Below are positions 9,149 to 59,080 of a DNA stretch of 64,000 bases, piece by piece. A program made the translations under genes and the position numbers. How positions within the stretch are numbered: the stretch's first letter is position 1; every line of letters begins with the position of its first letter. Origin of the DNA: Neckera pumila (Eukaryota; Streptophyta; Bryopsida; Hypnales; Neckeraceae); assembly GCA_963969595.1 (NCBI GenBank), contig OZ018410.1:38607413-38671412 (forward strand), in the 5' to 3' direction. Under the pieces are notes generated by a model, which saw nothing but the letters and a program-made list of their open reading frames with translations, did not search any database and was not told the DNA's origin.

Positions 9149-9734
9149 TTAACCCTTTAATGACCGGTTGACCACTTTTTGGTCGAATTTTGGATTCTTT
9201 GTCTTTTATAGCCCTCAATACAGGGTATTTGAAAAAACTCATAGAGTAACGCAAATTAAGCTTTAACATGCGCTCCAAACAAATCCAATTTCAGAGAATT
9301 CTGTGCAGTAATAAGGTAGTTGTACTTGTCCAAAGACAAGAGGGCCGACTTGAGAAATACCATCTACGCTGCACATATGTATTCAGCAACTCATGTGATT
9401 CTATTTCAAATTGACGCCTAAGATCAATAGAAACATTGCTTAGCGATCCCATGAATTGTGGAGGCATGTTTTTAAAAGTTGTTGGCAATAATGTATTATG
9501 CTGCTTTAGCTGAAGGCTACTTTGATGCATTGCACTTAGAAGATCACTCACAACAAATTGCACAGTCAGATCATGTTCACTTTTTGTTTTTTTCACGGAT
9601 ATAGCCTATAACATCAATTCTACGATCTAATCTAGGATTACTTCCTTGGAATAGTGATGAAATTTTCCTTTTCCAAATTTGTATTAAAAAAATGCACTTG
9701 CCCCCAAAATCAACTATGGTCACTAAAAGATTAA
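9149..9734. mobile_element. degenerate TTAA-bounded element (P)
   Basis: The left end is TTAACCCTTTAATGACC and the right end is GGTCACTAAAAGATTAA, an imperfect inverted pair flanked by TTAA at both sides. It is 586 bp, shorter and more diverged than the 930-bp copies. It has no coding capacity. Confidence 0.5.
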
Positions 9735-16389: not shown

Positions 16390-17937
16390 ATTTTTCTTGT
16401 TGACCTTTCATATTGGGTCATGAAGAATATCCAATTGAGTTTGTACTCTTGCAAGCGTTTGTCTTTAGGTAAAAGAGTAGTTATTAAAAAAATGGATTAC
16501 AAAATATATTGTTTTAGTATATTTTGGGAAGTTATTGCTTTGTGCTCAAAATCTGACATTTCTCCACAAAATGACAAAAATGATATTTTTGGAGTTTGAA
16601 CTTAACTAACAAAATGAAGGTCATCTACTCTAGTTTCTATTCCAACTCAAGTTTTGAAAAACTTCCTAATATTGAGAGCTTTATTGCAACATGAACTTTG
16701 GATGTATTTTCAATGTCTATTAACCCCTAAAGGACTAAGGTGATTTTTCTATCAAAAACCACTCAACACTGTCATTTCTATTGCAAAGAGAAAAGAACTT
16801 TAACTTATTATTTTTTTGCATATCCAACCTTAAGATCTTATATTTGACTAGTATATGAATATATGGAAGAAATTTCAAAAATTTTGACCATGCAAATTGC
16901 ATGATATATGCATTTAAAGTGAAGAAAACAATTTTTTTTGCACCTTGCTTGATTAGATGTTTTGGCTTTGCTTCTTTTTAGTTCAAATCTTTTGCACTAC
17001 TGATTTTGATTTTCTACTTATTTATGTTAAGTAGTTGACTTGAGAATCTACAAACAAATTTAGGAATAAAAGCACTTAATTTTCACTCATTAAAAAATTG
17101 TTAAGTAGATGTGGGTTCAAGATTGAAGAAAAAACTAAATTGTTAATAGCTTTTAGATGGAATTGAATCACAATAATTCCAATGGTGAGATTGTCTCTAG
17201 CAAGAAATCTAACCTTGTCTAACAAACTTTTTTGAAAAATTCTAAAAATTGCATTCAAAAATGAATTCTACAAGTTATTTTTCAAGAAGATGCATAGATT
17301 GCCCCAAAAAATAAGATTGTCCATAATTTTCTCATTATTAGTCCAAATTGAATGAAATAAAGCTTCACATGTGGAGAAAAATATAATCTTTGAGAAAAAG
17401 GTCTGAAAAAAAATATTTTGATTTTTTATGATTTTTTTTGTGCTGCTAGCCAAACTCCATTTTGCTTATTGTGCCATAATTTTTGATCCCGGGCATCAAT
17501 TAAAATAAAAGTTATATAGTCCCAAAGCTATCTCAAAAATACACGACCTCAAAAAATCCCAAAAAAATATCACTAAAATTTGATACGATAGGAACCTGCC
17601 CAGACCCAAATTGTCCCTCGAGGAGACAAACGGTCCTTTAGGGGTTAAACTCTAATTATAGAATGACATGGAAATTGAGTTTACACTATGATGTTTGCCA
17701 TTGTAAAATCTTCATTTCTTTTTAAACAATTTTCTATTTGATCAATGTGTTTTTTCTTCACTTTTTCTTCAAACTTCTCAAAGAAATCTTTTCCACAAAA
17801 AATCTAAATTTTCTGTGAAGTAAAGAAGACATGTAATTTCATCTCTTCAAAATAAACATAAATTTTTTCATATGTTTCCAGTTGCAAAATTGCAACAAAC
17901 TGAGTATCAGTGGTCATATGTAGGCCGTCATTTCATT
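16390..17937. repeat. dispersed repeat Q, copy 2, interrupted by TTAA element C
   Basis: The left part (16390-16616) and the right part (about 17806-17937) match copy 1 at 2383-2816 closely. The middle contains the complete TTAA element 16720-17648 plus about 250 bp not present in copy 1. The right edge lies about 70 bases before the first ATG of the ureidoglycolate lyase gene, so it may form part of its leader or promoter. Confidence 0.7.
16720..17648 (+). mobile_element. TTAA element, 929 bp (copy C)
   Basis: TTAACCCCTAAAGGACTAAGG at the left pairs with GGTCCTTTAGGGGTTAA at the right. The interior is collinear with copies 34174-35104 and (reversed) 41029-43967. There is no reading frame of note, so it is a non-autonomous, MITE-like copy. 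Confidence 0.85.
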
Positions 17938-22884: not shown

Positions 22885-23450
22885 ACCCCATTTGTATATG
22901 AAGAGTGTCTTCTCAATAGAAATTCCAAAATGAATTACCGATGGCAAATGGTAAGATTGCATTAGTGTATTACTCATTGGATTTTAAGTGTTTTTAGCAA
23001 ACCATCTTTCTCTACAAATATTTGTTGATTTGTATCTTTGGTCCTAAAATTAACAAAAGAAAATGGAGAATACCATAACTTATTGCCACTCTCCCGGTAC
23101 CAAAGCTTACATTAATGCTGAGAGGATGAATTCTGTGGATGAGGACTCCAGAGAGGAAAAGGCAGCCTCTCTAAAGGCTAATGAATGTTATGAGAGTTTT
23201 GGCTCTTCTTGCAATTAGATTTTGAACCATATTACTATTTTTTTTCTTACAATTGCATGTTATATCATGTTAATTATAGATATGCTGAATTTCAAAGTAG
23301 ATGAGGAATTTAGAAAAAGATGTCCAAACTATCCAAACTACTTGGATCTTTTGGGACAAGCATAACTATTAATTTAGGCATGCAATAGGAATTTGTTTTA
23401 CATTCCTACAAAAGAGGTGAATGTCTCCATCTTGTGTCAAAGATTCAGAA
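22885..23450. other. intergenic, no gene seen
   Basis: AT-rich DNA between the long inverted repeat and the tandem duplication, without a supported gene. Confidence 0.5.
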
Positions 23451-23882
23451 ACATCGGTTGACATTTTTATTTCGCAATCACCTACTTGAATTTCTAATGT
23501 CTGTTGAATAGACAATTGGTCTTGTACGAATTAGATCAGACCTGCCTAAAACATCCTACTCACTTGCTACCATAACATGATTATAGCATTAATGCTGATG
23601 TAAAAATATCCTATTATTAATTCTATATTAGTGGTATTTCATATAAGAGAATTACGATCCATAACAACATCGGTTGACATTTTTATTTCGCAATCACCTA
23701 CTTGAATTTCTAATGTCCATTGAATAGACAATTGGTCTTGTACGAATTAGATCTGACCTGCCTAAAACATCCTACTCACTTGCTACCATAACATGATTAT
23801 AGCATTAATGCTAATGTTAAAATATCCTATTATTAATTCTATATTAGTAGTATTTCATATAAGAGAATTACGATCCATAACA
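23451..23882. repeat. tandem duplication, 2 copies of 216 bp
   Basis: Copy 1 (23451-23666) and copy 2 (23667-23882) both begin ACATCGGTTGACATTTTTAT and are almost identical, differing at a few positions (for example ATGTCTGTTG against ATGTCCATTG). The near identity indicates a recent duplication. It is non-coding. Confidence 0.9.
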
Positions 23883-25309
23883 AAAAACATTCAAAGAATT
23901 GTGGCATTTTTGGACTAGCTTTAAACTTCCCTATTATTCCAAAAATAATTCTAACAAAAATAGAGCATATTCTTAAATAAAAATTTGCTTCTAAGTATAT
24001 TACTCATTTATATAGGGAAATTAGTTTATAAAGGTCGGAGGTTGTTTTGGAAGAGGTAAAAGCTCAAAACTGCAAATTTTTGATGCATTGTTTTAAATCA
24101 AAAATAATTTTTTTTTAATGAATTCCAACAATACAAAAGTGTATTAAACAAGTGAGTAAATGTGTAAAAAAAATTTCAGCCCATTTGACTATGTGGATTG
24201 AAAGATTATAATGTTTGAATGGAGATAAAAGACTTATTTTCATTACTGCAAAACAAAGTTAGCAGATTTTGAGCCGTTTTGGAGTAAAAATTTGGCTCTA
24301 TACAACAATGAGGATTTTCATCATTTATAAGTATATAATATTAGGTTCACTGATGCAAAATTTCAGAAGCAAATCTTTTGTCTAGCTTCTTCTAAATCAC
24401 CCTGCAATGGAAGGAAGCTAAATAAATTGGCAATACATTAATCATTTTTCGATGATTTCTTATGCAATGAAGAAATTTTAATATTTCTGGTTTCTAATCA
24501 AACATGAAATGTATGGGATAATTTCAAATAAGATAGAGTTAAAATTCTCATTTTATTAATGTAGTGATTTTATTCCTTGTACAATTTTAGACTTCATTTA
24601 TGCATAGTTTATTTTGTTTTTAATTCACAAAAAATGTAAAAAATTGAGTTGATTGTCAACTCTAGAAATGATATGTGAATTGAAGCATTCAATCAAAATC
24701 ATGAACAAAGTTCAAAGAGTGGACACGAAAATGTATTTCCTATCCTAAATTTTGTCAAATAACTTTTTATTGGAAGCTTCAAATCACTATAAGATTTTGC
24801 ATTTGAAGACTAACTCAATTATTTTGACTTGATTTTCTACATTTCTTTTGTTGATATTTTTTTACTAAACTTTGATCTACTAAAATTAAATGAAGTTTGA
24901 AATCCTACTAAAAATGCAATTATTGCTTTTTGAGATATCTCATGCAGATTGTTATACCTCTTATTAGTACCCACTTGTATAAACTATTTTCCTCCTTTCT
25001 TATTTTTGATTTCAAACATTAATGGGTTGAGTATTATAACAAAAAATGCCAATGGTAATATTATTATCCATTCATTATTATTCTCACCTATTCATACTAA
25101 CAATGATTTATCAAGGATAGATATTTTGTCATAGTCAAGGTAAAAGACAATCGTCACTTCACTATTTTGCAAAAAGGTAGGATCACCTTTTTGCAAGACA
25201 TATGTAATACAATTCATTCCAAATATCTAAATATTGAATTGGCCAACCAAACATATTATTAAATTGGTGATTTGACCAACATACATGAATATATTTTGTT
25301 GTCCTTGTT
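23883..25309. other. AT-rich intergenic, no gene seen
   Basis: About 1.4 kb of low-GC DNA with short random open frames only. No repeat termini were recognised. Confidence 0.55.
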
Positions 25310-29019: not shown

Positions 29020-30014
29020 ACTAGTCTTGAATTTAAATTATTGAACCACTCTAAGAATAGTTTCTAGAATCATATGCTCTCAAAGGTTTAACTCCTAAAT
29101 GTTTTTGACTATATTTTCACCAAATCCAAAACTGTTGTCTCTAGTACAGGTACTAAATTTTAGAAAAAAATAAACTTTTGGATATATGTAAACACAAAGT
29201 CTTGTAGTATGCTTGTTTGAAAAGATGTGGAAAATATTTCAAAAACTTCCCCCATCTAGATTGCAAGATATTAGCATTTGAATTAGCAAAAAAAAAATTT
29301 TGTCCTTCAAAAATTGAGCAGTTGCACTTGATAGGGTCACATTAAAAAATGTCTATGTTGGTGGTTATTTTTTGGATTCATTCTTCAAGGCAAATTGGCT
29401 CCATATTTGAAAAAATTTAGATCATTCAGATTTGTACAATATAGGAGAAAAACAGTAAGTATAATGAAGTAGAGAATGATTCAAAATACTAAATTGTTAA
29501 GAATTTTGTTATAGAATTGAAGAATGCCAATCCCAAATGTTGTAACAAACAATCTATATCCTACAATTTTATTTTTTTCCATAAATATTGAAATTGGAGT
29601 TACAAAAAAAACTTCAAAGTTTATTCTAGAAGAAAGAATCTATCATTTGGAAAAAATTCAGCCCTCAAAGGGGCTATGAAAACCGCAGGGAACAGCAAGG
29701 AATGCTAGCTGAAAAACATTTCCAAAAAAATTAAAATTACTATTATCATTTTCTTGTTTTTTTTTCCTTCTTCTTCGACCAGCAAACTGCGAAGGCCTGA
29801 ACAGCATAGGACAGGTCAATTAAATAATTGTAAAATATACTTTAAAAATTAAAATAATAATAATATTAAAAGAAATATGAAATTACAAAATTTCAAATCT
29901 AATACTAGCATAAGTGGTGCCATGTCAAATTGTTGCTTCTGAATTAATCTTATTTTATTCCCTTTTTTTTTATTTCTAATATTTTTGAATTATAATTTTT
30001 GAATTTTTAAATTC

Positions 30015-31803
30015 ATTTAAATATTTAAGTATTCTTTAAATATTTAAATATTCTTTAAATATTTAAATATTCTTTAAATATTTAAATATTCTTTAAATAT
30101 TTAAATATTCTTTAAATACTTAAATATTCTTTAAATATTTAAATATTCTTTAAATATTTAAATATTCTTTAAATATTTAAATATTCTTTAAATATTTAAA
30201 TATTCTTTAAATATTTAAATATTCTTTAAATATTTAAATATTCTTTAAATATTTAAATATTCTTTAAATATTTAAATATTCTTTAAATATTTAAATATTC
30301 TTTAAATATTTAAATATTCTTTAAATATTTAAATATTCTTTAAATATTTAAATATTCTTTAAATATTTAAATATTCTTTAAATATTTAAATATTCTTTAA
30401 ATATTTAAATATTCTTTAAATATTTAAATATTCTTTAAATATTTAAATATTCTTTAAATATTTAAATATTCTTTAAATATTTAAATATTCTTTAAATATT
30501 TAAATATTCTTTAAATATTTAAATATTCTTTAAATATTTAAATATTCTTCAAATATTTAAATATGCTTTAAATATTTAAATATTCTTTAAATATTTAAAT
30601 ATTCTTTAAATATTTAAATATTCTTTAAATATTTAAAGCATATTTAAATATTTAAATATGCTTTAAATATTTAAATATTCTTTAAATATTTAACTACTCT
30701 TTAAATATTTAAATATTCTTTAAATATTTAAATATTCTTTAAATGTTTAAATATTCTTTAAATATTTAAAGCATATTTAAATATTTAAAGCATATTTAAA
30801 TATTTAAAGAATATTTAAATATTTAAATATTCTTTAAATATTTAAATATTCTTTAAATATTTAAATATTCTTTAAATATTTAAATATTCTTTAAATATTT
30901 AAATATTCTTTAAATATTTAAATATTCTTTAAATATTTAAATATTCTTTAAATATTTAAATATTCTTTAAATATTTAAATATTCTTTAAATATTTAAATA
31001 TTCTTTAAATATTTAAATATTCTTTAAATATTTAAATATTCTTTAAATATTTAAATATTCTTTAAATATTTAAATATTCTTTAAATATTTAAATATTCTT
31101 TAAATATTTAAATATTCTTTAAATATTTAAATATTCTTTAAATATTTAAAGAATATTTAAATATTTAAATATTCTTTAAATATTTAAATATGCTTTAAAT
31201 ATTTAAATATGCTTTAAATATTTAAATATGCTTTAAATATTTAAATATGCTTTAAATATTTAAATATGCTTTAAATATTTAAATATGCTTTAAATATTTA
31301 AATATGCTTTAAATATTTAAATATGCTTTAAATATTTAAATATGCTTTAAATATTTAAATATGCTTTAAATATTTAAATATGCTTTAAATATTTAAATAT
31401 GCTTTAAATATTTAAATATCCTTTAAATATTTAAATATCCTTTAAATATTTAAATATGCTTTAAATATTTAAATATGCTTTAAATATTTAAATATGCTTT
31501 AAATATTGAAATATTCTTTAAAATATTGAAATAGTCTTTAATTATTGAAATAGTCTTTAAGTATTGAAATATTCTTTAAATATTGAAATATTCTTTAAAT
31601 ATTGAAATATTCTTTGAATATTGAAATACTCTTTAAATATTTAAATATTCTTTGAATATTTAAATCTTCTTTGAATATTTAAATCTTCTTTGAATATTTA
31701 AATATTCTTTAAGTATTTAAATATTCTTTAACTATTCAAATATTCTTTAAATATTCAAATATTCTTTAAATATTCAAATATACTTTGAATATTCAAATAT
31801 TCT
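30015..31803. repeat. AT satellite, 19-bp unit, about 90 copies
   Basis: The unit TTTAAATATTTAAATATTC is repeated almost without error for about 1.8 kb. Its halves TTTAAATAT and TTAAATATTC are themselves related. A block at about 31190-31500 is homogenised to the variant ending ATGC. Local inversions (GAATATTTAAATATTTAAAG) occur near 30635, 30765, 30800 and 31150. The right edge degrades into GAAATA and CAAATA variants, as at the margin of an array. It contains no G or C outside the fixed position. Confidence 0.95.
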
Positions 31804-31895
31804 TGATTGTGATCATGATTCATCATTGATAATGAATAGGGGTTACTATTCATTGAGTTCTATTGAAGGGAATTTTCCTAAGGAAACTTGCCCCT

Positions 31896-40735: not shown

Positions 40736-41873
40736 TTAACCCCTAAATGCCTGAGGCACCAAATTTTGGTGTTGAAAATACTTTGAAGTTAAATAATATC
40801 CAACCAAATTGTTATTTTTAGAAGTTCATATTTTTGTAAATTTCTTTATGAAGTCTAGTTTTAGCATCAAAAATCCGATTTTGAAAATGATTGATTATAA
40901 TGTTTCTATTCTAGAATTTGTGCAAAGGTACCCATTGCAATCTTGACTTTCCGTAGTGTTATGAGCCCTTGAAAATGAGCCTCAAATGAGCCTAGATCTC
41001 GGAGGAAAAATCACATTAGAAATTCATTTTAACCTCTAAAGGACCATTTGTCTCCTCGGGGGACAATTTGGGTCCGGGCAGGTTCCTATTGTCTCAATTT
41101 TTAGTGACATTTTTTGGAATTTTTTGAGGTTATATATTTTTGTGAGAGCTTTGTAAATATATAATTTTTATTTTAATTGATGCCTAGTAGCAAAAGTTAT
41201 GGCACAATAAGCAAAAATGGAGTTTAGCGGGCAGCAAAAAAAATCACAAAAAAATAAAATAATTTTTTTTTCAATTTTTTTTTCAAAGATTATATTTTTG
41301 TCTACATGTGAAGCTTTGTTTCAGTCAATTTGGACTAATAATGAGAAAGTTATAGACAATCTTGGTTTTATGGGCAATTTAAGCATCTTCTAGAAAAAAT
41401 AACTTATAGAATTCATTTTTGAATGCAATTTTTAGAACTTTAAAAAATATTGTTAGACAAGGTTAGATTTTCTTGCTAGAACAATCTCATTGTTGGAAAT
41501 ATTGTGATTCAATTCCATCTAAAAGTTATTAACAGTTTAGTTTTTTCTTCAATCTTAAATCCACCTCTACTTTTAATGAGTGAAAATTAAGTGCTTTTCT
41601 TCCCAAATTTTTTTGTAGATTCTCAACTCAATTGCTTAACATAAATGAGTAGAAAATCAAAATCCATAGTGCAAAAAATTTGAACTAAAAAGATTCAAAG
41701 CCAAAAAATCTAGTCAAGTAAGGTGCAAAATAGCTTGTTTTCTTCACTTTAAATGCATATATCTTGCAATCTACTTGATCAAAGTTTCTAAAATTTCTTC
41801 CACGTATTCATATACAAGTCAAGTATAAGATCTTACGTTTGGATATGCAAAAGAAAACAATTCTTAAAGTTCT

Positions 41874-46467: not shown

Positions 46468-46476
46468 GAAATTAGG
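46468..46476. repeat. left 9-bp target site duplication of the MULE
   Basis: GAAATTAGG here is repeated exactly, in the same orientation, at 59072-59080, just outside the inverted ends. Nine bases is the usual Mutator-type duplication. Confidence 0.75.
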
Positions 46477-46662
46477 CAACGACGCTAGTTTGTGAGCCTA
46501 AAAGCGCGAGCTTGAGAGCGGTGAGCATAGGTTTTGCGAGCCCTCGGATCTTTTGAAAATAAGTTGGATATTTCAGATTTTTTGGAAAAAAAACTTGGAT
46601 ACATTTTGGGTAAAAAACTGATTTTTTTTGCTATTAATGGTGAATTTGGGACCTATGACCGT
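46477..46662. repeat. left terminal inverted repeat of the MULE
   Basis: It begins CAACGACGCTAGTTTGTGAG and carries repeated GAGC/GAGCC motifs spaced 8-12 bases. A T-run and GACCTATGACCGT follow. It matches the right end in inverted order, with about 70 extra bases in the middle. The repeated GAGC motifs may be transposase-binding sites (inference). Confidence 0.7.
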
Positions 46663-47727
46663 ATACCCTATGATTGTGGATAAGTAAATATTTTATGTGG
46701 TGTTTGAATTCTTTGTAGTAGAAAAGAATCCTCCACATGGTGAGACCGAGAGTCATTTCTTTGGGAGGCTAATGTTTTGAAGAAACCTTGGCTCCCAAAA
46801 AAATGGGGAAGTCTGGTGGTGACCACGGGATTGTCCCCCAAAATGTAGAAAAATAAATGACGATGTCCTGTTGAGAGTGGGAGTCATTTCTTATTGAGTC
46901 TACCCTTAAGGTTTAGGGTCTGCATGGATTTCAAAAGGAAATGAAGAAAGGGTTTTGAACCAATTGAGGCAAAGTGTGTACATGCTTTATTTATTATTCT
47001 ATGTGTGCTTTATCTATACATGCTTCAGTTAGTATTTTCAACAAAATGACAGAGAACCAGTGGGAATATAATTCTCCACATAATGATGGAGAAAGGCTAT
47101 TCCCCCACATGGTACCTTGTTGTGTAAGACCATCGAAGGTGACACCTCTTATAGTGGCGCATTCTAGAATGCCAATCGTTATGGGACATATGAATAGGAA
47201 CCCTTGTCACTCTTCCCCGTTTTCAGCACTTATCACCACTTTGCGCTCACATACTAGCATTGTTGGTCAATGAATCGAAAAAATAGGAAAAAGGGATCTA
47301 AATGAAATGGGAGAGAAAATCAACAATAAATCAACAAAATTTATCTCATATTCATATTTTCACTGTTGGATTAGAGGTCTACATTGTAGTTTTGAGTCAT
47401 TTATACTTTCTTCTTCAAAACATTTGACAAATGAAAAATTCCAATATGTCATAAATAAATGAACATTTTTCAATTTTCAATCCATCCAAGGGTCTAAGTC
47501 ACATTCATTTGGCAAAATGGCACGTTGGACATAGAGTGAGGAATTCATTGACCTTGCTTGTAGGAAAGTCATTATCTACAAATTTAAATACACGTATAGT
47601 ACTTCAAAGAAGTAGATTTGGAATTCACAGTACTCGATATTGAAAGCCTAAGCTTCTACTTTGCCACATACAAGTATAGTATGTGGATTCAGTCACTAAC
47701 AATGTATTTTAGCTGAATACTAGCATT

Positions 47728-50700
47728 TCAAGCAATATTTCTCATCATCCCTGCCATTTGTAATAGTTTCATCACTTCATCCATACTGAAGCTTGGTGCG
47801 TGAATGAACTTGTCCTTCTTCTGGTCCACCTTGTACAAGTAACAAAAAATGTAGTACAGGTGTTTGCAATTGACATATTTCCCTCGCTTTTCAATGGATG
47901 CAGACAACATACCGCTGAAATACAAGCAAGTGCAAGCTGGGAAATTGGAGATGGTGACTCGATACACCATGTGATGAGGTTCGACGCCAAATTGTAATGT
48001 GATGACAGCTCCAATTCCCGGGTATGGCAAAATCTGAACTCTAAAAATATTCCCTGTAACATTTCAAGCGCTCTCTTACTGGTTCCGGTGATCATCAGTT
48101 GGCGCATTCTCATTTCTCCAAATGTTTTTTCCATTGCAAATGCATGGAGGCTTGTCCGCGTGAGGAGGTCTTGCGTAAGTTTATTCTACAACTTCAAAAA
48201 GCTTTGAAGACGTGAAGAGACGACGTGGAGACAAGGATGGTCATTCCTGCAGGTGGAAGCTAGCCTCTTCAAAGAAAATAATCTCGTCGGAAGAGAGGGC
48301 CGTACCAATCATCACTGGCCAGACAACAGGGATCTTTGGTCAATTGAGAACATGAGACCTCCTGGGGCCCATCACACGGCGTTGGATATCGTCTAGACAA
48401 AATTAGAATTCATCTATCTCCACTCTTGAACCTTTGTACTCGCGTCTTTGACCCTTGTATATTGGAGCAGCGGTGGCTTTTGACCCCTTAGCTATGATCA
48501 TCTTGCACTTCACCTCTATCTGAGACTAAATGGCATGGCACTTCCTCTTTGACTTCACAGAAATGCGGACTATGTGCCACTCGGAGCATCACAATCTGTC
48601 TCCAGAACATTCTTTGCATGAGGAAACACTGGTCCCAATCCCTCCACACTGGCAGTTGCAACTTCGGTGGACCTGAACTGGATTCTAGGGTGAGAGAAGT
48701 TCACTTTATCCGGGCAATGAGAATCACCTTCAAATCCAATGGGCACATCCAGTCTTTGTTTGGTTGACCCAAAAACTTCTTCTCCTTCTAAGTGTGGTAT
48801 ACGTGTGCATACTTCCTCGGCACTAGGCATACTGCACAAAGCGTCGGTAATTCTCTTCCCATCCATCAATGCTATTGCTCTCTTCAACTTCAAGCCATGT
48901 CTCGATGGTCCAAATCCAGATGGGCCGCCATTGAGGTACACCTGATAATTAGTCATTTGCATGAACGCCCGCACCCAATCATTACATGTCACAACGTATA
49001 AGTCCATCCTCTATTTCCCGGAAGCTTGCAACCACTTATTGTGAATTGTTTCGGAAAGGTTGCAGGACAAAATATGTGCCAATTCTTCTGCTGATAGATT
49101 ATGGACAAGCGACAGGAGAAGAAAGAGGTTCAATCCAAAAAGCACAGAAAGAACTCTAAGTATCATTGCATAGGAAGTAAATGCGAAACAAAAATCCTCC
49201 CAACCCCAAAAACCCATGAGGGGGCCCTCGGTGGCAAGGGGGTCCCTAAGGGAGCCAGACCTCGCAATAAAAAAAATGGAGAGGGATCTGATCCTTCTCC
49301 CCGAAACCAATCTTGTCTGTCTGGAAGCAATGCAAAACGAAAATCTTCCCAACCCCAAGAGCCCATGAAGGGGCCCTCGATGGCGAGGGGGGCCCTGAGG
49401 GTGTCGGACCTCGCAATTAAAAAAAGAACTCTAAATATCACTACACATGTAGTAAAAGAAGGAAGAAAGAAGGTCTTACAGTCTCCATGAAGCCACCCCA
49501 TTGACGGTATCTGAAGTGCCAGAACGCTAACCACAACTCCAGCTCCTTCAAGCTTTCTTCTGTTGCTGCCCCCAAGGAGTACCATCACGCCTTGATTTGA
49601 AGGTACCTGCTCTCTGCTTCATCTAGATTCTTGGCATCGTTGTAGTCTCTGCATAGCTTCATGTGTTGATTTTGAAACTCGCGCTTGATAAGTTTCTCTG
49701 TGTGCTGTTTCATTGAGGTAGCCCAATGAAAGAGGCAGGTGCATTCACGGTCCACCATCTTCATAGGAGGGTCGCCATAGTCGTAAACTATTTGAACAGC
49801 ATTCCAATTGGCTTATGCGATGTCTGCCATGAAGCCCTTAAAATTGGGATTGGGTAAGCCATTCTTCTCCATAACTCTATTGAGACATGTCTATATAATG
49901 ACTTGTCCATCAGTATCCTCCGACTGCAAATCGCAAATGGCAATAGTCATTACCTTACAGTAGCTGGAAACATAAACGTGGCATGCAATAGTAGTCCAGC
50001 CCTTGACCCGCTTTGCATGATCGAACATGAGCCAAAAATTTGCCAAATCCCCTCCAGGTTGCATCCGTCGTACAAGATCAACTCCGCTCCCTGGGCCATC
50101 TACGAGCATCTTGAACAGGTACACTTTCTGCTGGCCTTGACCCGGAAACACATTGTCGTGGATGAACTCAATCTTTGCTTGTTTTTTCGTTGCAAGTAGG
50201 CAGTCAATCTCTCCGCCTCCAACTCCAGTGCTACAGAAAGACGCAATAATATTTCTAACATTCGGGGAGCGCAGAACTTGGAACTTGTCCATGACGTCAT
50301 TCAAAGACTTGCCCCTCAGCCTTTCCCTAGGTCCGTCATCCGAGTGCACCAGGAATGTATCCAAGAACTCCTTGCTAGCATCCAATGCTATTGCAGAGGC
50401 TTTGGCCGTAGGTGTCTTTTCTACTTCTTTTGCAATGAGTCCTGATATGATGTCTACAGAATCTCGGCAGAGGCCATTGGACACCGGATGATTATGGGAG
50501 CCTAAATGAATGCAAGCTCTCAACATATCAGCTGCCCCTATGATATAGTAAATTCTTCCGTCGCAGAAATTGATGCAAGTGGGTGGCTGCTTGCAGACCT
50601 TGTATACTAACATAGAATCCTTTGGAGCAATCGATCCTACATTGAAAGGAGTACTAGTATTATCCGACCACTCCGTTTCATTTCTCTTGGTGCAGCGTTT

Positions 50701-51635
50701 CAAGTAATCGCATGCATCATTCGTGCATGCTAAGTGACAACACAATTGGACTTTCTGAATTTCAGACCATAATCGTTGTGAATGTTTGAGGTCGTAGTAC
50801 GACACTAGGCATGAGCATTGTAGTATTTGTCCATGCCGATCATGTTCTTAGAGGAACTGGAGGAAGCTAAAGACCGACATGGCGGAAGCTCTAAGACAAT
50901 GTCGCCGTCAAAACTAGTTGGCAGGAACTGAACCTTGTTGTATGTTATGGAATCAAAATCAATGGAAGCAAGCTCGTTCCTACACCCTCGAATAGTTTGT
51001 AACTTCTTAAGACATGTCATGACACTAGGGAATTGACGCTCTACTGGATAAAGAGGCGGTCTAGAGTGGATAGAGCTCCCAGCACTACTGTCACGTCCGC
51101 CAGCAGACTGGGTTGTGGGATCTCTTGCCGAACCGTCCGTGAGGTTCATTGGAGAAGAACGGTGACCAAAATTCCTTGTCTCATCCTCCGAATGACTGGA
51201 TAATTCTACAATTGGACTTAAGAACTGCTTCCCAGTAGGAAGGACCAATCCGCGACCACTTCCATTATCACTTTGAGAAGGACCTTTGGATTCTACTTTG
51301 ACGACTCGTAATATCGGATTCTGTGCAGTTGATGCATCAGACAAGGGAATCAATACATCCATTGAAGCAGCCATCACATCATCGCTTAATTTGAACGCTC
51401 TATAACGACCCGCCGATAAACTCCACAAGTAACCATGAACATTGCTAATCCTAGGAATGAAAACTACATGAAGCAACAACCCTGACTCTAAAAATATCTC
51501 TTCCTCAACATAGATTGAGGACTCCTTGAAACCATAACGGACAAGAATTAGGTCACTTGAGACCTCGGCTAGCCCGTGAACGTTCAAACGGAGAATAAAA
51601 GGCACCTCATGCTCAAGAGCTTTGATGGACGCCAT
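47728..51635 (-). pseudogene. MULE-type transposase with GCM1/WRKY-like zinc region, DDE-like core and SWIM finger
   Basis: The likely start is ATG at 51635 (MASIKALEHEVPF), 46 bases downstream of TATAAAT. A 290-residue N-terminal frame runs to 50805. A +1 shift then opens the next frame (CLVSYYDLKHSQRLW) with a Cys/His zinc region ending HLGSHNHPV, then FPGQGQQKVYLFKM and the core FWLMFDHAKRVKGWTT. Stops follow: TAG 49891-49893, TAA 49813-49815 (inside the second acidic motif GFMADIA-ANWNAV) and TGA 49585-49587. CLFHWATSMKQHT and FWHFRYRQWGGFMET precede a donor at about 49482. After an intron holding GC-rich repeats, frames resume (AESIHNKWLQ-like, then EVFGSTKQRLDVP). They end with a SWIM finger, CTCLYFSGM...GKYVNCKH. 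Domain order and SWIM are typical of MULE transposases. Three nonsense codons and several frameshifts mean it is inactive. Confidence 0.75.
49190..49430 (-). repeat. two copies of the 149-bp GC-rich repeat, reversed, in a transposase intron
   Basis: CCCTCGGTGGCAAGGGGGTCC (from about 49225) and CCCTCGATGGCGAGGGGGGCC (from about 49375) lie 150 bases apart. Reverse-complemented they match the array at 53013-54020, including CACCGAGGGCCCCCT, a GCTTCC-CAGA segment and TTTCGGGGAGAAGGATCAG-like sequence. Confidence 0.75.
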
Positions 51636-51680
51636 GGCGCATGGCAGTTGTGAAAGAGAATTTTTGTATCCGAACAATTT

Positions 51681-51687
51681 ATTTATA
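51681..51687 (-). promoter_or_regulatory. TATA box of the transposase gene
   Basis: On the minus strand GGTATAAATAAATTG stands 46 bases upstream of the ATG at 51635. It lies in the 0.6-kb spacer between the two divergent genes, which probably acts as a two-way promoter region. Confidence 0.45.
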
Positions 51688-52243
51688 CCGTTTTGATGAT
51701 GGATGTGTTATCAATGTGCAATCCTTAAGGAACTACATGTTCATCTGAAATTTGAAAAATCTCATCGCATCCGGAATGACAGTGTCTCAGTTGCTCACCT
51801 AATCAAATTTGAAGTGAAAGACTTAATTACCAAATATCCACAGAAATCAAGTATAGTAAGTACACTCTTTGCAATTTTTGAAACCACCAAATCTCATAAT
51901 CACGCTGGATATCCCAGCCATGAATTTTGAATCCAGAAGTAGTGACAGGGCCGCGCCCATCAAACTAACTTTCGTTAATTGTCTGTCATATTTTGAAACT
52001 AAAAACAATAAAATAAAGTACTTACACCACTAGTATATAATGCCACAATGTACTCAGTCATTTCATTCCTTCAGTGACGATTCACCATTTCATGATTCTA
52101 TTAGTGGTGTCATGTTTCCATGAATGTAGGACCTTGAATTATACTAGCGTTTAGGATAGATGCAAAAATCTGGGGTAGAGCTGAAGAAAAAGCAAAGGAG
52201 TACACTGCGTTTCAGTAATTCCAAGGAGATAAAGTGAAGCAGA

Positions 52244-52459
52244 ATGAAACGACAAAGAGATGTAAGCTATGGTACATCACTTGTAGAACCCAGACACTCA
52301 GGCATCCAAAAGGCTCACAGGAATTCCACCACCGCAAATCCGAGAAGGAACACCGCATTAGAATTTCCGGATCATGAATCCGAAGAGGAATCCAAGAAAG
52401 TCATTGTCAGACACGACCATCGTATTTTCATTGTGAGTGACCGTCATGAAATAGTTTGA
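52244..52459 (+). CDS. basic N-terminal open frame, possible first exon of the ParB/methyltransferase gene
   Basis: The frame starts with ATG (MKRQRDVSYGTSLVEPRH) and is rich in Arg, Lys, Ser and Glu (DHESEEESKKVIVRHDHR); it is the first sustained frame on the plus side of the divergent spacer. A GTAAGC donor lies early in it (52261). I do not recognise a domain. Its assignment to the downstream gene rests only on position and strand. Confidence 0.3.
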   Translation: MKRQRDVSYGTSLVEPRHSGIQKAHRNSTTANPRRNTALEFPDHESEEESKKVIVRHDHRIFIVSDRHEIV

Positions 52460-53012
52460 GAATTCATCAAATTTTTGTCATGTTTGATGTCCATTATGCT
52501 CTTTAGGGGATTTCAAAATTGATCAACCGGGAGGAGAATGTGTGGGAAATTTGAATGTGGGACTTGTGAATATGGAACCCACCGGTTATGGGGTCCCACC
52601 AAGAGGCGGGTATTGTGGGTGGCACAGCAACTGCCCCGATATCCTAAAACACCTATGCCTCTCGCCTCCTGTGTCGAAGGGGACCTCCGACTCTTCTTGC
52701 GTGTCGACCTCCTCCGCCTCGTCTCTTCTCCCTGGTAGCTTCGAGACACCACGATTTGCCTCCCTCTCTGTTCCACCTACTCCGGATTCTCATTTGGTTT
52801 CTTATTGTTGGAGCATTCTTCAGGCGCGCTTGTGCCGACTGAACTGACGTTGGAGTCAATGGAGACAAGGAGCAGACGCAATCTTGGCCAAAAAGAGGAG
52901 GCTCCTGTACACTAGTCAAGCCCAGATGCGCGACTTCAGGAAGTATGGATTTAACTCTTGTGGGGTTTGCACCTTTGAATATTTGTTGCTGAAGAATGCC
53001 TATCGACTTCTT

Positions 53013-54020
53013 TTCTTCATTTCTGTCGCAAGCGCCGATGAATTCCGGACCCCCCTCGCCATTGAAGTTCCCCTGCCGTAACCGCATTGTTGGAAACATT
53101 TTGGTTTCATGGAGCTTCCCAGCAGACAGATGTGCTTCGGGGAGGTGGTTTAGGACCCTCCCTTTTATTTTTTGTTTGCAAAGGCCGGTGCATTCTGGGA
53201 CCCCCCGCCACCGAGGGCCCCCTGCCATGACCTCATTGTTGGAAACATTTTGGTTTCATGGAGCTTCCCAGCAGACAGATTTGCATGGGGAGGGGGTTGT
53301 GATCCCTCCCCATTTCTTTTTGTTTGCAAAGTCCGGTGCATTTTGGGACCCCCTCGCCACCGAGGGCCCCCTACCATGACCGCATTGTTGGAAACATTTT
53401 GGTTTCATGGAGCTTCCCATCAGATAGATTTGCTTCAGGGAGGGGGTTGTGATCCCTCCCCATTTTTTTGGGTTTGCGAAGGCTGGTGCATTTTGGGACC
53501 CCCTTGCCACCGAGGGCCCCCTGCCATGACCTCATTGTTGGAAACATTATGGATTCATGGAGCTTCCCAGTAGACAGATTTGCTTCAGGAAGGGATTTAG
53601 GACCCTCCCTCTTTTCTTTCGTTTGCGAAGGCCGGTGCATTCGGGGACCCCCTCGCCACCGAGGGCCCCCTGCCGTGTTCGCATTGTTGGAAACATTATG
53701 GATTTATGGAGCTTCCCAGTAGATAGATTTGCTTCGGGAGGGGGTTCAGGACCCTCCCTCTTTTTTTTTGTTTGCGAAGGTCGATGCATTCGGGGACCCC
53801 CTCGTCACCGAGGGCCCCCTGCCGTGACCGCATTGTTGGAAACATTATGGATTCATGGAGCTTCCCAGTAGATAGATTTGCTTCGGGGAGGGGGTTCAGG
53901 ACCCTCCCTTTATTTTTTTGTTTGCAAAGGCCAATGCATTTGGGACCCCCTTGCCACCGATGGCCCTCTGCCGTGACCGCATTGTTGGAAACATTTTGGT
54001 ATCATGGAGATTTCCAATTC
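53013..54020 (+). repeat. tandem array, 7 copies of a GC-rich 149-bp unit
   Basis: The marker ATTGTTGGAAAC recurs at 53086, 53235, 53384, 53534, 53683, 53832 and 53981, a period of 149-150. Each unit holds GGACCCCCTCGCCACCGAGG, the marker, ATGGAGCTTCCCAGTAGA and GCTTCGGGGAGGGGGTT. The period is not a multiple of three and the open frames across it drift, so I read it as non-coding, probably intronic to the plus-strand gene. Confidence 0.9.
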
Positions 54021-54487
54021 ACAGACATTTTCTATTGTGTGATGGATTCTAGTTTTGATATACTGTGGTCTCATAGGTTCATCTAGCAGCTGTGAACGTA
54101 CATCATCCTGACGAACTTGTGGTGGATAGAATGAGTCTGCCACTACCTGCGAGGCACTTGGTAACCCTTGATGCTCTTTTGAGGGACCTTGACGGGGATT
54201 GGGACCCCCAATCTCCAGTGTCCTGTTGTGCGTCATTGGGCTCAAATGAAGAAGTTCACATCCTTCCTGATTCCCCAATGACAGTAGGACAAGAATTACA
54301 TAGTCCTCCTGAACTTCAAGGGTCCTCTAGCTCTTTGATTGGGAACAGGATACTGTGTCTGTATTGTAGGGATTGGAAGTCCATTCTCGAGACGTGTGTC
54401 TATAGACAGCATTAGGAATATAATATGTATCCAGATGCCAACCGGGCTAGTTGTGCTACTCACACTTATAAAGCTTGTGGTTTCTGA

Positions 54488-54769
54488 TTGTCATTCTTGT
54501 CCCCTATGTATGTGCTTGACTTCAAGAAGCCAAAAAATTCTCTGTCCAGACTCCAACTTACCAGTTTCATTTCTTGCATCCAGAATGAGGCAACGGTCAA
54601 TCAGGCCAACCGTGCCTCTTTGGCTTCGGAGCTTGTCACGACTTTGGAGCAAGTCCATTCCGATATTTCAATGGAAGGTAATCTTCAAGATGTCGTGCAC
54701 TGTGACCATCAGACGTGCGGCATTGACTCATACGAAGGCGAGGACGACATCAAGAGGCTCAAAAACTAG
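54488..54769 (+). CDS. possible upstream exon of the ParB/methyltransferase gene
   Basis: A 93-codon frame with protein-like composition (ANRASLASELVTTLEQVHSD, then GIDSYEGEDDIKRLKN) lies between the tandem array and the ParB-like part. Two other frames overlap it, so which is used is uncertain. No domain is recognised. Confidence 0.3.
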   Translation: MSFLSPMYVLDFKKPKNSLSRLQLTSFISCIQNEATVNQANRASLASELVTTLEQVHSDISMEGNLQDVVHCDHQTCGIDSYEGEDDIKRLKN

Positions 54770-54792
54770 ATTATGTTTCAACAATATCGAGT

Positions 54793-57700
54793 ATGAGAAT
54801 CAAACCACACCATCTCTTGCATTTGGACATCCTGTTATGTCGATTGGTTCCTATGCCCATGGTGAGGCCCACGCTAGACTGTGATCTGGTCCAACTCGAG
54901 ACGGATTACGTCCACGGCTATGAAGTTGGAGCTCGGGTTTTTTATGTTTCCATTTCGGACGAGGGAGGTCAAAGGGGTGTATTCTCTCCAACAGAGAAGT
55001 CTCAATGGGGTCCTATTTGGAACGCCGTCAATGACCAGTTCGATGGATATCTCAACAGTCAACCAAAGTTGAAGCACTTGGTGGACGCGAAGTTTTTTAT
55101 ATACAATGGAAACCACCGCCGTATAGCCTGGATGCAACATATCGAGCGACTTCATAGCAGTGATCCAAAGTGGCATGTCCGAGTGGATTCGATTGTATTA
55201 GATACGAAAGGAAGATTGGGTGCGACCATGCAGGTCATGCATGATATTAATCAGTGAGTTCCAATCCATGGTTGTGCTCTTTCAGTTTGGTTCTTGTGCT
55301 TTGTTCCATCTTACTAACTCTGATATTTTATTCATGACATTAGGCACACCAAGAATTTGCATGTCAAGACAAATCTTATCCACACCTTGTACCGTGTTCG
55401 CAAATATGGCACAATGCCAATTGAGAAGTTGTTTGAGCTTCTGAGCGAAGACAATGCTAAGGCTTGTTAGCAAACTGTTAGAAAGACGTGGTACACCCTG
55501 CCCATGGAGGTCTTTACATCCTTCATTTTCCAAGTGAGTTTCATTCACTTCCCTAGTTTTCTTATTTTCAAATGGATTGACTAATATATTATAGAACCTT
55601 GAAAGGTCCTTTCCTGTAAATCATTTGACAAACAATTCTCGCCCTCTTGTTGCAGCAAGAAATTTTGGCAGTAATTGATGCTGCCGTCCACAAGTACCAC
55701 AAGGATACTCCAATACAGGATGTCTCTCCGATTGGGGTTGCGGCGGCAAAGCGAGTTGCAACAAAGGAAGCAACTAGACTAAATGGCCAGAAGCTTTCCA
55801 AGATTCAGTCTGTTGCTAATCCGGTGTTAGGGGATGAGTGGCTCGAGGAGTGGCTTCAAGAGGTACGCGGTTCACATCAATTTTTGTTTTGGATTTATTG
55901 TGGTCAATCTTTAAACCATCTGTTATACTGAACTTTGCTTCTCTCACCTCAGATTGAACGGCACTAGAGCTTATATGCTGTCGAGGAGTTGACTTTGGAC
56001 AAACTCCAACTAATAGCTACTGCAAATGCTGACTCACATCACAAAGTGAAGTGGCTAAAGTGGATAAGTTCTTCCGCTCCTACTCGTGAGGCACGTCGTT
56101 TGCCACCAAGACCAGCAAATGATGATAAAATGATGACCTTCCTCTTGAAGGCCTGTTGGTATGCTGCGATAAGTTCTGTAGGTTCAGTCCTATTCCAATA
56201 TGCTTTTGACATTTGTAATCTATAGCTTTATCTAAATTAAATCTTCTTCCTCTCATTTTACAGATTGAAGACTCTGCCCTCGAGTTATACGAAAGTATCA
56301 TTAAAGCAAACAACATCCAAGTGAATATGGAGGTGTCTGCGGAGCCAATAACACTCTCTGACTACATTGGGGCTTGGTGGATGAAAGTGTGGGACCATGC
56401 ATATGTTGGAGTATTCAAGGGCGCTGACTTGTTCAAGAAGTTAGGGTCCTTCAAGGAATTCAAAGGCTCCGCCCTTGCGGTGAAGCGGATCCTTTATAGA
56501 TATAAGACCTAATCCATTCTCCTTGACAATCTATAATGGTTTTTCAGAATCAATTGGTGAGATTCTATTGCTAAACAACGTGTTTGTGACCAAATATTTC
56601 ATGTTCAAACTTTATGCAGAGAAAGCCATTTTTAAGACGGATTTACCGCCATTTTTGAAGACATGGCTAGATCAAACTTCAAATGATTGTATGTTCACTG
56701 CTGCCCAAGACAAGAATTGGCCCACTGGTCATCTTTAATCAGATGCGTGGTATCTGGACTGCAGCGGTAGATTCGTACCTGCTAAGGAAGAAGTTCTTTT
56801 CAAATCCATCAAAGAGAGCCCCCTGGTGGAGACCAAGTTACCAGAACTTGCAACCCTTGATGTTGATGCTAAGGAGAAGGCCTTGAAGAGGCGAGAGTTA
56901 GCTGATAAGAAGAAAGAAGAGAAGTGGGAAACGGCAAAGAGAAAATAAGAAGAGAACAAAGTGAAGAAGAGAGACCGCAAGGCAGAGAAGGCTAAAGTGG
57001 ATGCCAAAGTGAAGAAGAAGGGGAGGAAGAGGAAAGCGGACACTCTGGTGGCGGATCAAGCAACAAGTGAAGGAGCCGTGAAGGAAACTTCTTCAAGCTT
57101 TTCACTCACCCGGTCGCACCTATTGCATGGGCTACCACCTCCACTTCCAAATCTAAATGCCGTGGTCACTATTGACTAGTGCATCTTGAATGCTTCTGTC
57201 ACTACTCTCGTTGGGTCAAAACCATTCCAAGACGTGCTATCTCTTCTAGAAAAGGTACTATGTGCAACTTTGGTTGATTTTATATGTCTCTTTGTAACTT
57301 TGGACAACTTCCAAACTTGTTCTCTATCACACCATAGCAGGTCGTTCCATTTTTTTGTTTTAGTTCTCCTAATGGTTGTTCACTCTTACCTCTATGCAGC
57401 ATGCCTCAGACAAGAGATGCTTCTTTGATGAAGTGGTTACAGGCACAGCAGCCGTGGACTTGATAATTTTTTATGTCCCAGAGGGTTTACCGGTCCCAAT
57501 CGTTTCCACACCCCCAACATCCGTTCCAAAATGGAACACATTTTCCTCTTCAGATCTACAAGCCGTTTTTGACTTCACAAATAACTATCTACACGATGCT
57601 GGTGCTCTTCTTGTGATGTATCCTTTTAGCTGGGACATCAAGTCCTTCCTCTTGGGTGACTGCGAATCCTTTGGATTTAAATCTGAGATGGAGTGGTGGG

Positions 57701-58769
57701 TCGGGAATAGATTGCATTTGACATCGCCTATGGACCCCTCTGGCACGGTAAGTCCTCTAACATGGATGGTGGTCAATCTTTTCAACTGAATTTATGCTCA
57801 AATTTTGATCCTCGTCGAGATCTTCATGCAGGCCCTGCGCTTCAAAATGTTGCTATACGTGAAGGATACGACTGGGCGATCTACCTCTCAAGTCAAGTTC
57901 CAGCATGTTCTAGCTCATGCAGCAATTGACGTGGATGTTGGCAAAGACAACCTTTTTTGCAATTTCTGCAATAAGGAGGATCAAACTATGAATGGCAATA
58001 TCCCTTGGTGTGGGCCTTGAGAGAAAGCACGGCCCTTCATGCAAACGCTGATTGAAGAGACTACCTCACCTAGTGATGTCATCGTCGATTGCACTGCATC
58101 TATAGGTTAGTTTCTTTTTTCACCTAGAAACCAACATTTTGTGCTTTTCATTTGTTTTATTCTATGAATTTCTGAAATTGTTGCTTTGGCATCTGTTCCT
58201 CTCCGCAGGTGCTAGCATCTATGCTTGTCGAGCTACTAGGCGGCATACAGTGGCCTTGGAAGAGGATAAGCCTATTTTCAATGCCCTCCTTGCTCCGTTA
58301 AGCTGCCCGTTGCAAATCTTTCCCCTACACCACAAACCTCTAAAGCTTCTCAAGTTGATTTGGACGACAAGGAAGTGCCGATCCATAAAGTGACAAGGAC
58401 TAACCGATTTAGTAAGTATGTTTGCCCCTATACTTCTTAACCACTGCGAGAAGATTACTTGTTTAAACTTCTTCTCATATTTGTTTTTTGGACTCTTGTA
58501 GGCAAGGTTTGAAAGTGAAGATGCCATCACAGCCACCGTTCTTTGCAGATCCGAGATTCTTGCGCAATCCTCCCCAAACTTATCAGCTGCCCGTGTATGC
58601 CGAAGCAGCAGCCAAACACCTTGAGACTTCTGACCCAAACCTAGCTTCTAGGGTCCATAAGGTAGATCCACGCGTTTTAGTATTTATAGATCATTCTACA
58701 AAAGATTCCGTGGGTGAGTCATCAGACACTGATGAGAGCTATGCATCCGCATCTTCTAGCAGTTCCTAA
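54793..58769 (+). pseudogene. ParB-like plus beta-class methyltransferase-like protein carried by the MULE
   Basis: Exons by GT-AG and phase: 54793-55253, 55344-55533, 55656-55862, 55953 to about 56175, 56265 to 57255 (several frames), 57400-57747, 57832-58105, 58209 to about 58411, 58501-58769. The first has a ParB/sulfiredoxin-type motif, FFIYNGNHRRIAW. A Lys/Glu-rich stretch follows (KRRELADKKKEEKW). The C-terminal region begins VDLIIFYVPEGLP, at the place of methyltransferase motif IV, followed by FDFTNNYLHDAGALLVMYPF. Next come VIVDCTAS-GASIYACRA and TVALEEDKPIFNALLAPL, like the AdoMet-binding motif I with its acidic partner. The order IV then I is that of beta-class amino-methyltransferases. 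A catalytic (D/N/S)PP(Y/F/W) is not visible. Stops at 55468, 55965, 56946, 57177 and 58018, plus frameshifts near 56515, 56790 and 58330, show decay. A Ser-rich tail ends the frame. Confidence 0.6.
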
Positions 58770-58961
58770 ATCTGAGGAAATCCTCAAACTCTATCTATTG
58801 TATTTCCGTATACATATCTATATACTTCTGATGTTATCTCTCTGCATGGTATGTTGTCTTTTTTTAGTGGTCGCTCAAGCTTTTTATCCAAATAAGTCAC
58901 TTTAGAAGCCACAATAATTTTTGCCAACAAAAATTAGAAAACAATTTGATATTTGGAATCC

Positions 58962-59071
58962 ACGGTCATGGGTCCACAATCAAAAATTGCAAAAAAAAAA
59001 AAAAAATTCAGGCTCACAGGCTCTCCGGCTCTTGGGCTCATGCTCCAAGGCTCACAAAATAGCACCCCCCG
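58962..59071. repeat. right terminal inverted repeat of the MULE
   Basis: Read in reverse from 59071 it begins CGGGGGGTGCTATTTTGTGA and carries GAGCCT, GAGCCC, GAGCC repeats, a T-run and GACCCATGACCGT, matching the left end in order. The outermost bases differ (CGGGGGG against CAACGAC). Confidence 0.7.
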
Positions 59072-59080
59072 GAAATTAGG
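59072..59080. repeat. right 9-bp target site duplication of the MULE
   Basis: GAAATTAGG, identical to 46468-46476 and in direct orientation. Confidence 0.75.

Follow-up and report, generated by a model that had tools for sequence, protein, structure and literature searches.

Results

The 64,000-nucleotide stretch of Neckera pumila DNA analysed here (contig OZ018410.1, positions 38,607,413 to 38,671,412 of the forward strand; hereafter, the window) holds a transposon copy with two divergent multi-exon genes (Table 1). Gene A, on the minus strand, encodes a transposase with a predicted RNase H fold, probably a Mutator-like one. Gene B, on the plus strand, starts at ~54.1–54.9 kb, ends at 58.8 kb and combines a predicted ParB-CTPase fold with a diverged beta-class DNA-methyltransferase-like domain. 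An exact 9-bp target site duplication (TSD), GAAATTAGG, stands at 46468–46476 and again at 59072–59080, and the element is therefore 46477–59071, or 12,595 bp; counted across the 64 kb, GAAATTAGG occurs twice on the plus strand and once on the minus strand. An earlier note on this DNA, made by a model from the letters alone, had described identical flanks, GAGC-rich inverted ends with collinear blocks, and two divergent multi-exon genes around a short spacer. Flanks, ends and genes bear out, both genes being conserved in sister copies; the spacer is instead ~3 kb long in the window and ~6 and ~7 kb in those copies.

The ends contain an inverted pair (46484–46519 and 59028–59063) that is 75% complementary over 36 nt, with a second collinear block further inward. 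Within the window, at least four GAGC on one strand per 90 bp are reached at the two element ends only, and 200 kb of flanking genome added three GAGC clusters that, by eye, are unlike these ends. One match of 25 bp between L013 and the right end is a poly-T stretch and no transposon end. In the 200 kb of the same genome that flank the window on either side there was neither a protein copy nor a match to the spacer unit, and an Rfam scan of the window gave no match at gathering score.

Do the two genes belong together? A search of the N. pumila genome (339,505,838 bp in 18 contigs) with the ParB exon of gene B returned 150 scored places from 451 candidates, ~60 of them (63 by hand count) with stop-free matches. 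Two of the 149 places other than the window were fetched, picked as long open ParB frames when their surroundings were not yet known; 147 remain. Sister F1 (C5:15945975-15964161, 18,187 bp) and sister F2 (C8:21312064-21331463, 19,400 bp) each have an exact 9-bp duplication of their own, AGGAAAAAC and CCATAATTG, respectively. They are ~96% identical to one another, and at both ends their alignment borders directly on the respective duplications. Their termini, TGAGCGTTGCTAGCGCGTGAGC and, inverted, GGGGAATGCTGGCATGTGAGC, are of the same kind as those in the window, and both sisters carry the transposase on the opposite strand together with every gene B exon queried (a set that excluded the Lys-rich linker and the last exon). 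In all three copies examined, genes A and B are enclosed by one pair of GAGC-rich inverted ends flanked by 9-bp duplications. The earlier note had suggested looking for just this joint occurrence between inverted ends with 8–11 bp duplications, and it was found in both of the other copies examined (of 149). That the genes are chance neighbours was ruled out, the same pair being present in 2/2 other copies; so was a host gene B beside a MULE (Mutator-like element), as TSDs enclose both genes in 3/3 copies.

The window copy is dead, a pseudogene pair, because both genes hold in-frame stops: at least four in gene A (three in the catalytic exon, one in the next exon) and six in the modelled exons of gene B. 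Frameshifts are inferred near 50,830, 54,760 and 58,290. The compared pieces of F1 and F2 contain two and three stops. Between these two sisters, the ratio of non-synonymous to synonymous change (dN/dS) was 0.29 for gene B (13.5 changes over 1549 non-synonymous and 12.5 over 428 synonymous sites) and 0.57 for gene A (30 over 2754 and 15 over 789); both are raw ratios on small counts, taken from aligned exon pieces of two copies without a significance test.

More distant relatives include L001 (a transposase homolog) and L003 (a gene B homolog), intron-containing, eukaryote-like contigs within an assembly of an uncultured cyanobacterium, isolate AVDCRST_MAG81, where they apparently represent contamination of the cyanobacterial genome record. 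In this assembly ParB and the transposase each have a single place; no ends shared by L001 and L003 were found (score 21, with shuffles up to 37). The viral contigs searched held no relative of the ParB exon and none of the transposase, and the ParB exon had no relative in a collection of genome contigs.

The catalytic exon of gene A has 80 homologs at E≤0.01 and is 49–50% identical to the sister copies. In the next exon we take the Glu of the ETIHNKW motif to be the candidate catalytic Glu. The model of the L001 homolog predicts an RNase H-like fold with strand order b1-b2-b3-a-b-a-b, and structural matches of its catalytic region point to ISCth4, retroviral integrases and Hermes. The best Foldseek match of this region is the ISCth4 transposase, presumably of the IS256 family. 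By sequence profile, the Pfam SWIM match reaches 16.6 bits, below the cut-off of 19.6; profile scans of gene A proteins gave no Pfam MULE domain, and a PDB profile search with the transposase alignment gave no match. As to the features of MULEs, a TSD of 8–11 bp is present (exactly 9 bp in 3/3 copies examined), and terminal inverted repeats could be aligned in the window copy and F1, those of F2 being of the same kind by reading. We assign Mutator-like membership because of the TSD, the inverted ends and the fold match, with Pfam cut-offs not reached. The three copies examined support the claim of the earlier note that such an element holds a second, ParB- and methyltransferase-like gene inside its ends.

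Searching with the ParB exon of gene B gave 192 homologs at E≤0.01 from 789 candidates; no protein was retrieved with a gene B query of 870 residues, and the exon-sized query succeeded. The motif GNHR, which fits the GxxR P-motif, occurs in 115/120 of the homologs listed, and in the window copy. Structure prediction supports a ParB-CTPase fold for this first conserved exon: in a model of pLDDT (predicted local distance difference test) 74.6, Foldseek ranks 1–11 are Noc, ParB, sulfiredoxin and PadC (best E 0.08), and rows 1–12 of a VIA structure comparison are ParB, Noc, KorB and PadC. Upstream, the acidic region at 54078–54769 is the probable N-terminus, on the basis of homologs such as P0081, in which a similar E-DDIRRxQKLDxVSTISSLR motif is continuous with the ParB exon.

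Gene B ends in a diverged beta-class DNA-methyltransferase-like domain. The window exons match such enzymes at E=0.012–0.04 in four libraries (N6_N4_Mtase, E=0.03; CcrM, E=0.016; phrog_3008, E=0.013; PDB DpnA, E=0.012); in the PDB list, thioredoxins follow at E=0.13. L003, 32% identical to the window in this part (pairwise E=3e-34), gives stronger scores when its two exons are joined: E=1.6e-5 and 25.4 bits against PF01555, just below the cut-off of 26.7, with CcrM at 1.2e-4 and phrog_3008 at 1.3e-4. Taken singly, its 548-residue exon, in which half of motif I is missing, had no methyltransferase profile match. A tblastn search of phages with the L003 domain returned three records (best E 0.1), and the pairwise E between the window domain and that phage protein was 0.09. 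In alignments read by eye, the phage SPPY is placed against DVPE in L003 and YVPE in the window, and the phage motif I DNFMGTG against DITASTG and DCTASIG. None of the four sequences seen has the catalytic (D/N/S)PP(Y/F/W), in place of which the window has YVPE, and F1, F2 and L003 have DVPE; the S-adenosylmethionine motif FxGxG is likewise missing from all four, replaced by DCTASIGAS, DCTASTGSS or DITASTGAS. Judged by these motifs, gene B may not methylate.

Tandem arrays occupy the inter-gene spacers of all three copies. Those of the sisters consist of a 285-bp unit (6.9 copies in F1, 10.7 in F2) and contain all perfect palindromes of at least 18 bp found there (four in F1, six in F2), with GGTCTCTCGGGCCCGAGAGACC or a near form of it. 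The array palindromes are 20–24 bp long and present in some units only. Upstream of gene B, a 107-bp array in L003 includes a similar palindrome, GGGTCTCGGATCCGAGACCC; for two units of this array, folding was far superior to that of shuffles (z -6.1 and -4.3). In the window copy no perfect palindrome of at least 18 bp was found; its array has only interrupted inverted repeats, and the folding of three tested units was not better than that of shuffles (z -0.25 to -1.4). Going by their sequence and position, the array palindromes are candidate parS-like sites.

Separate from the 285-bp array, a second, CCAAGC-rich minisatellite lies in the sister spacers (L026 and L027, F1 7235–7411; L028 and L029, F2 8949–9178). 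Elsewhere in the window are an AT-rich satellite at 29998–31804 (19-bp unit, ~95 copies, 96%), a 216-bp tandem duplication at 23450–23883 (97%), and a strong inverted pair at ~17107–17327 and 41248–41468, which is the top random window pair (score 88.9) and possibly represents two copies of another repeat. A minus-strand open frame of 438 residues at 3763–5079, rich in Arg, Glu and Ser, is perhaps an SR-like host gene exon.

Table 1. Features of the transposon copy, in window coordinates
Feature	Position	Strand	Remarks
Left 9-bp TSD, GAAATTAGG	46468..46476		Direct reading
Transposon copy	46477..59071		12,595 bp; TSD-bounded; two sister elements repeat gene layout and end type
Left terminal inverted repeat, GAGC-rich	46477..46576	+	5 GAGC within first 90 bp
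Gene A, SWIM-like zinc finger region	47731..48063	-	Pfam SWIM E=0.0059
Gene A, exon with ETIHNKW motif	48573..49088	-	Stop 49013; 44% identity to sister copies
Two units of spacer-type 149-bp repeat, in gene A intron	49170..49440		Inverted, 149 bp apart
Gene A, catalytic exon	49483..50847	-	Stops 49893, 49815, 49587; inferred frameshift near 50,830
Gene A, N-terminal exon	50805..51635	-	tblastn to both sister copies, 29–30% identity, E ~1e-25
Spacer tandem array	53051..54016		149 bp x 6.5; most units with interrupted CCCTCG-CCAC-CGAGGG inverted repeat
Gene B, probable N-terminal region	54078..54769	+	Acidic, EGEDDI; out of frame with ParB exon in window copy
Gene B, predicted ParB-CTPase-fold exon	54727..55253	+	NGNHRR P-motif
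Gene B, middle exons	55344-55533, 55656-55862, 55953-56177, 56264-56508	+	Stops 55468, 55965; present in both sister copies
Gene B, Lys-rich linker exon	56622..57254	+	Stops 56736, 56946, 57177
Gene B, methyltransferase-like exon, motif IV region	57400..57747	+	YVPEG in window, DVPEG in sisters
Gene B, methyltransferase-like exons	57832-58105, 58209-58292	+	Motif I DCTASIGAS; stop 58018
Right terminal inverted repeat, GAGC-rich	58972..59071	-	6 GAGC within first 90 bp
Right 9-bp TSD, GAAATTAGG	59072..59080		Direct reading

Discussion

What could a ParB-like protein do for a transposon? We propose that the window element, now decayed, belongs to a large family of Mutator-like DNA transposons that was active recently and whose fuller copies carry two divergent genes, and that gene B would encode a ParB-type clamp that loads at palindromes and serves as a VANC-like anti-silencing factor or a transposition partner. 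Taken whole, this explanation stands at an even balance in our estimate. The sites known as parS are palindromic. ParB proteins load at parS and then slide, and the ParB-CTPase fold is characterised by a GxxR P-motif (PMC12704722). By analogy, the ParB domain of gene B, with its GxxR P-motif kept, would be a nucleoside triphosphate (NTP)-gated DNA clamp that loads at the array palindromes as bacterial ParB does at parS, spreads along the element and coats it, its methyltransferase-like domain being one without a DPPY motif. Such a protein might act in cis and on sister copies, keeping the shared promoter region open or assisting transposition. The putative anti-silencing role is modelled on VANC, which binds motifs within rapidly evolving tandem repeats, both intronic and intergenic, of VANDAL elements and undoes DNA methylation there (PMC5735166). 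A bolder formulation is that of a eukaryotic DNA transposon with a self-made ParB–parS-like system, in which an NTP-gated clamp with a repurposed methyltransferase fold loads on palindrome arrays, spreads, and controls chromatin or mobility; this we advance tentatively, as a possibility. To our knowledge, no sequence-specific DNA clamp of ParB type has been described from any other eukaryotic mobile element.

A strict end-to-end alignment of the two termini has a score equalled by 4/1000 shuffles and 13/2908 window pairs, and a loose-gap alignment one equalled by 1/2000 Markov controls and 17/4838 window pairs (several of the top-scoring loose-gap control pairs touch the AT-rich satellite). 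Because shuffles and window pairs also reach it, the alignment score alone is modest evidence; we accept the inverted ends because two sister copies have GAGC-rich ends of the same kind, each adjoining its own 9-bp duplication. No ParB sequence profile was significant for gene B, with no match in Pfam and none in the PDB: the ParB-like family phrog_1033 matched L003 at E=0.25, and a PDB profile search with the ParB alignment gave one weak, unrelated match only. In the rest of the window there are seven 18-bp palindromes, so that palindrome length alone is no proof of a binding site.

The most credible of the alternatives, if an unlikely one, holds gene B to be a mudrB-like cofactor that binds element DNA for synapsis or integration and has no effect on silencing. 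Gene B does stand beside the transposase in the three copies examined, and mudrB is the second gene of a MULE and apparently required for integration (PMC6446971); the candidate sites of gene B, however, are in the spacer and not at the ends. Next in rank, and rather unlikely, is a working DNA methyltransferase that is targeted by ParB and sets N6-adenine or N4-cytosine methylation as a self-mark or protection. The relationship of gene B to beta-class DNA methyltransferases fits this view, as does the motif IV Asp kept in F1, F2 and L003; fusions of ParB with N6_N4 methyltransferases are enriched in phages (PMC12704722), and retrotransposons elsewhere encode active DNA methyltransferases (DNMTs; PMC5890265). 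Yet DPPY/SPPY has become DVPE (YVPE in the window) and FxGxG has become TASxG, and we rank methylation lower because the domain is without its usual catalytic signature in 4/4 sequences seen. Where the earlier note had offered marking, protection or anti-silencing as roles of gene B, these altered signatures make a structural or regulatory role more likely than marking by methylation.

Could the ParB fold instead serve an ATP-dependent enzyme in the style of sulfiredoxin (Srx) or SerK, rather than a DNA clamp? Both proteins share the fold and occur in the structure match lists, and eukaryotic members of the ParB-CTPase fold are mostly Srx (PMC12704722). With ParB and Noc structures top-ranked, and with the fold joined to a DNA-methyltransferase-like domain in a long protein inside a transposon, we regard this as quite improbable. 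Least probable of all, to the point that we give it very little credence, is a captured passenger in the manner of Pack-MULEs, without function for the element. MULEs frequently capture gene fragments (PMC13317346), and stops interrupt the match at many of the 150 ParB places; against capture stand the multi-domain make-up of gene B, its 150 scored places in one genome, its relatives elsewhere and its dN/dS of ~0.29.

If the proposed clamp is real, a plant-type transposon would be using a protein of the bacterial chromosome-partition type to withstand silencing or to aid transposition, and the range of the eukaryotic ParB fold would reach beyond sulfiredoxin, with a large gene family. The palindromic arrays make the clamp model directly testable in vitro. 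MULEs with accessory genes are already known. As to the particular pairing, the literature searched (subscription papers and Repbase were outside its scope) gave no account of a ParB-CTPase fold with a methyltransferase-like gene in a eukaryotic transposon, in keeping with the earlier note, which knew of no such description. In their accessible text, 'plant' and 'transpos' have no occurrence in PMC12704722, nor 'methyltransferase' and 'parb' in PMC6446971 and PMC13317346.

How does the element compare with known systems? Like the VANDAL elements of Arabidopsis with their VANC genes, it is of MULE type, carries an extra gene and has quickly changing intronic and intergenic tandem repeats (PMC5735166); VANDALs, however, are MULEs without terminal inverted repeats (PMC13317346), whereas the window element is bounded by inverted ends and encodes an extra protein, predicted to be ParB-fold and methyltransferase-like, that is set apart from VANC by description. 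MuDR likewise unites a transposase and a second gene, mudrA and mudrB, within one element, but mudrB encodes a protein of unknown function (PMC6446971) and the domains of gene B are identifiable, a comparison again made by description. The DNMT retrotransposons of Symbiodinium and charophytes share with it a transposon-encoded protein of DNA methyltransferase type; theirs is a C5 cytosine DNMT (PMC5890265), while gene B is beta-class amino-methyltransferase-like, is joined to a putative ParB fold and resides in a DNA transposon. ISCth4, the best Foldseek match of the gene A catalytic region, is prokaryotic. The phage fusions of ParB-CTPase and N6_N4 methyltransferase resemble gene B in that both domain types are found in one protein (PMC12704722); these are prokaryotic, whereas gene B contains introns, belongs to a eukaryotic-type DNA transposon and has altered methyltransferase motifs. 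The fusion as such is already known from phages, and what is new, within the literature searched, is its occurrence in a eukaryotic transposon.

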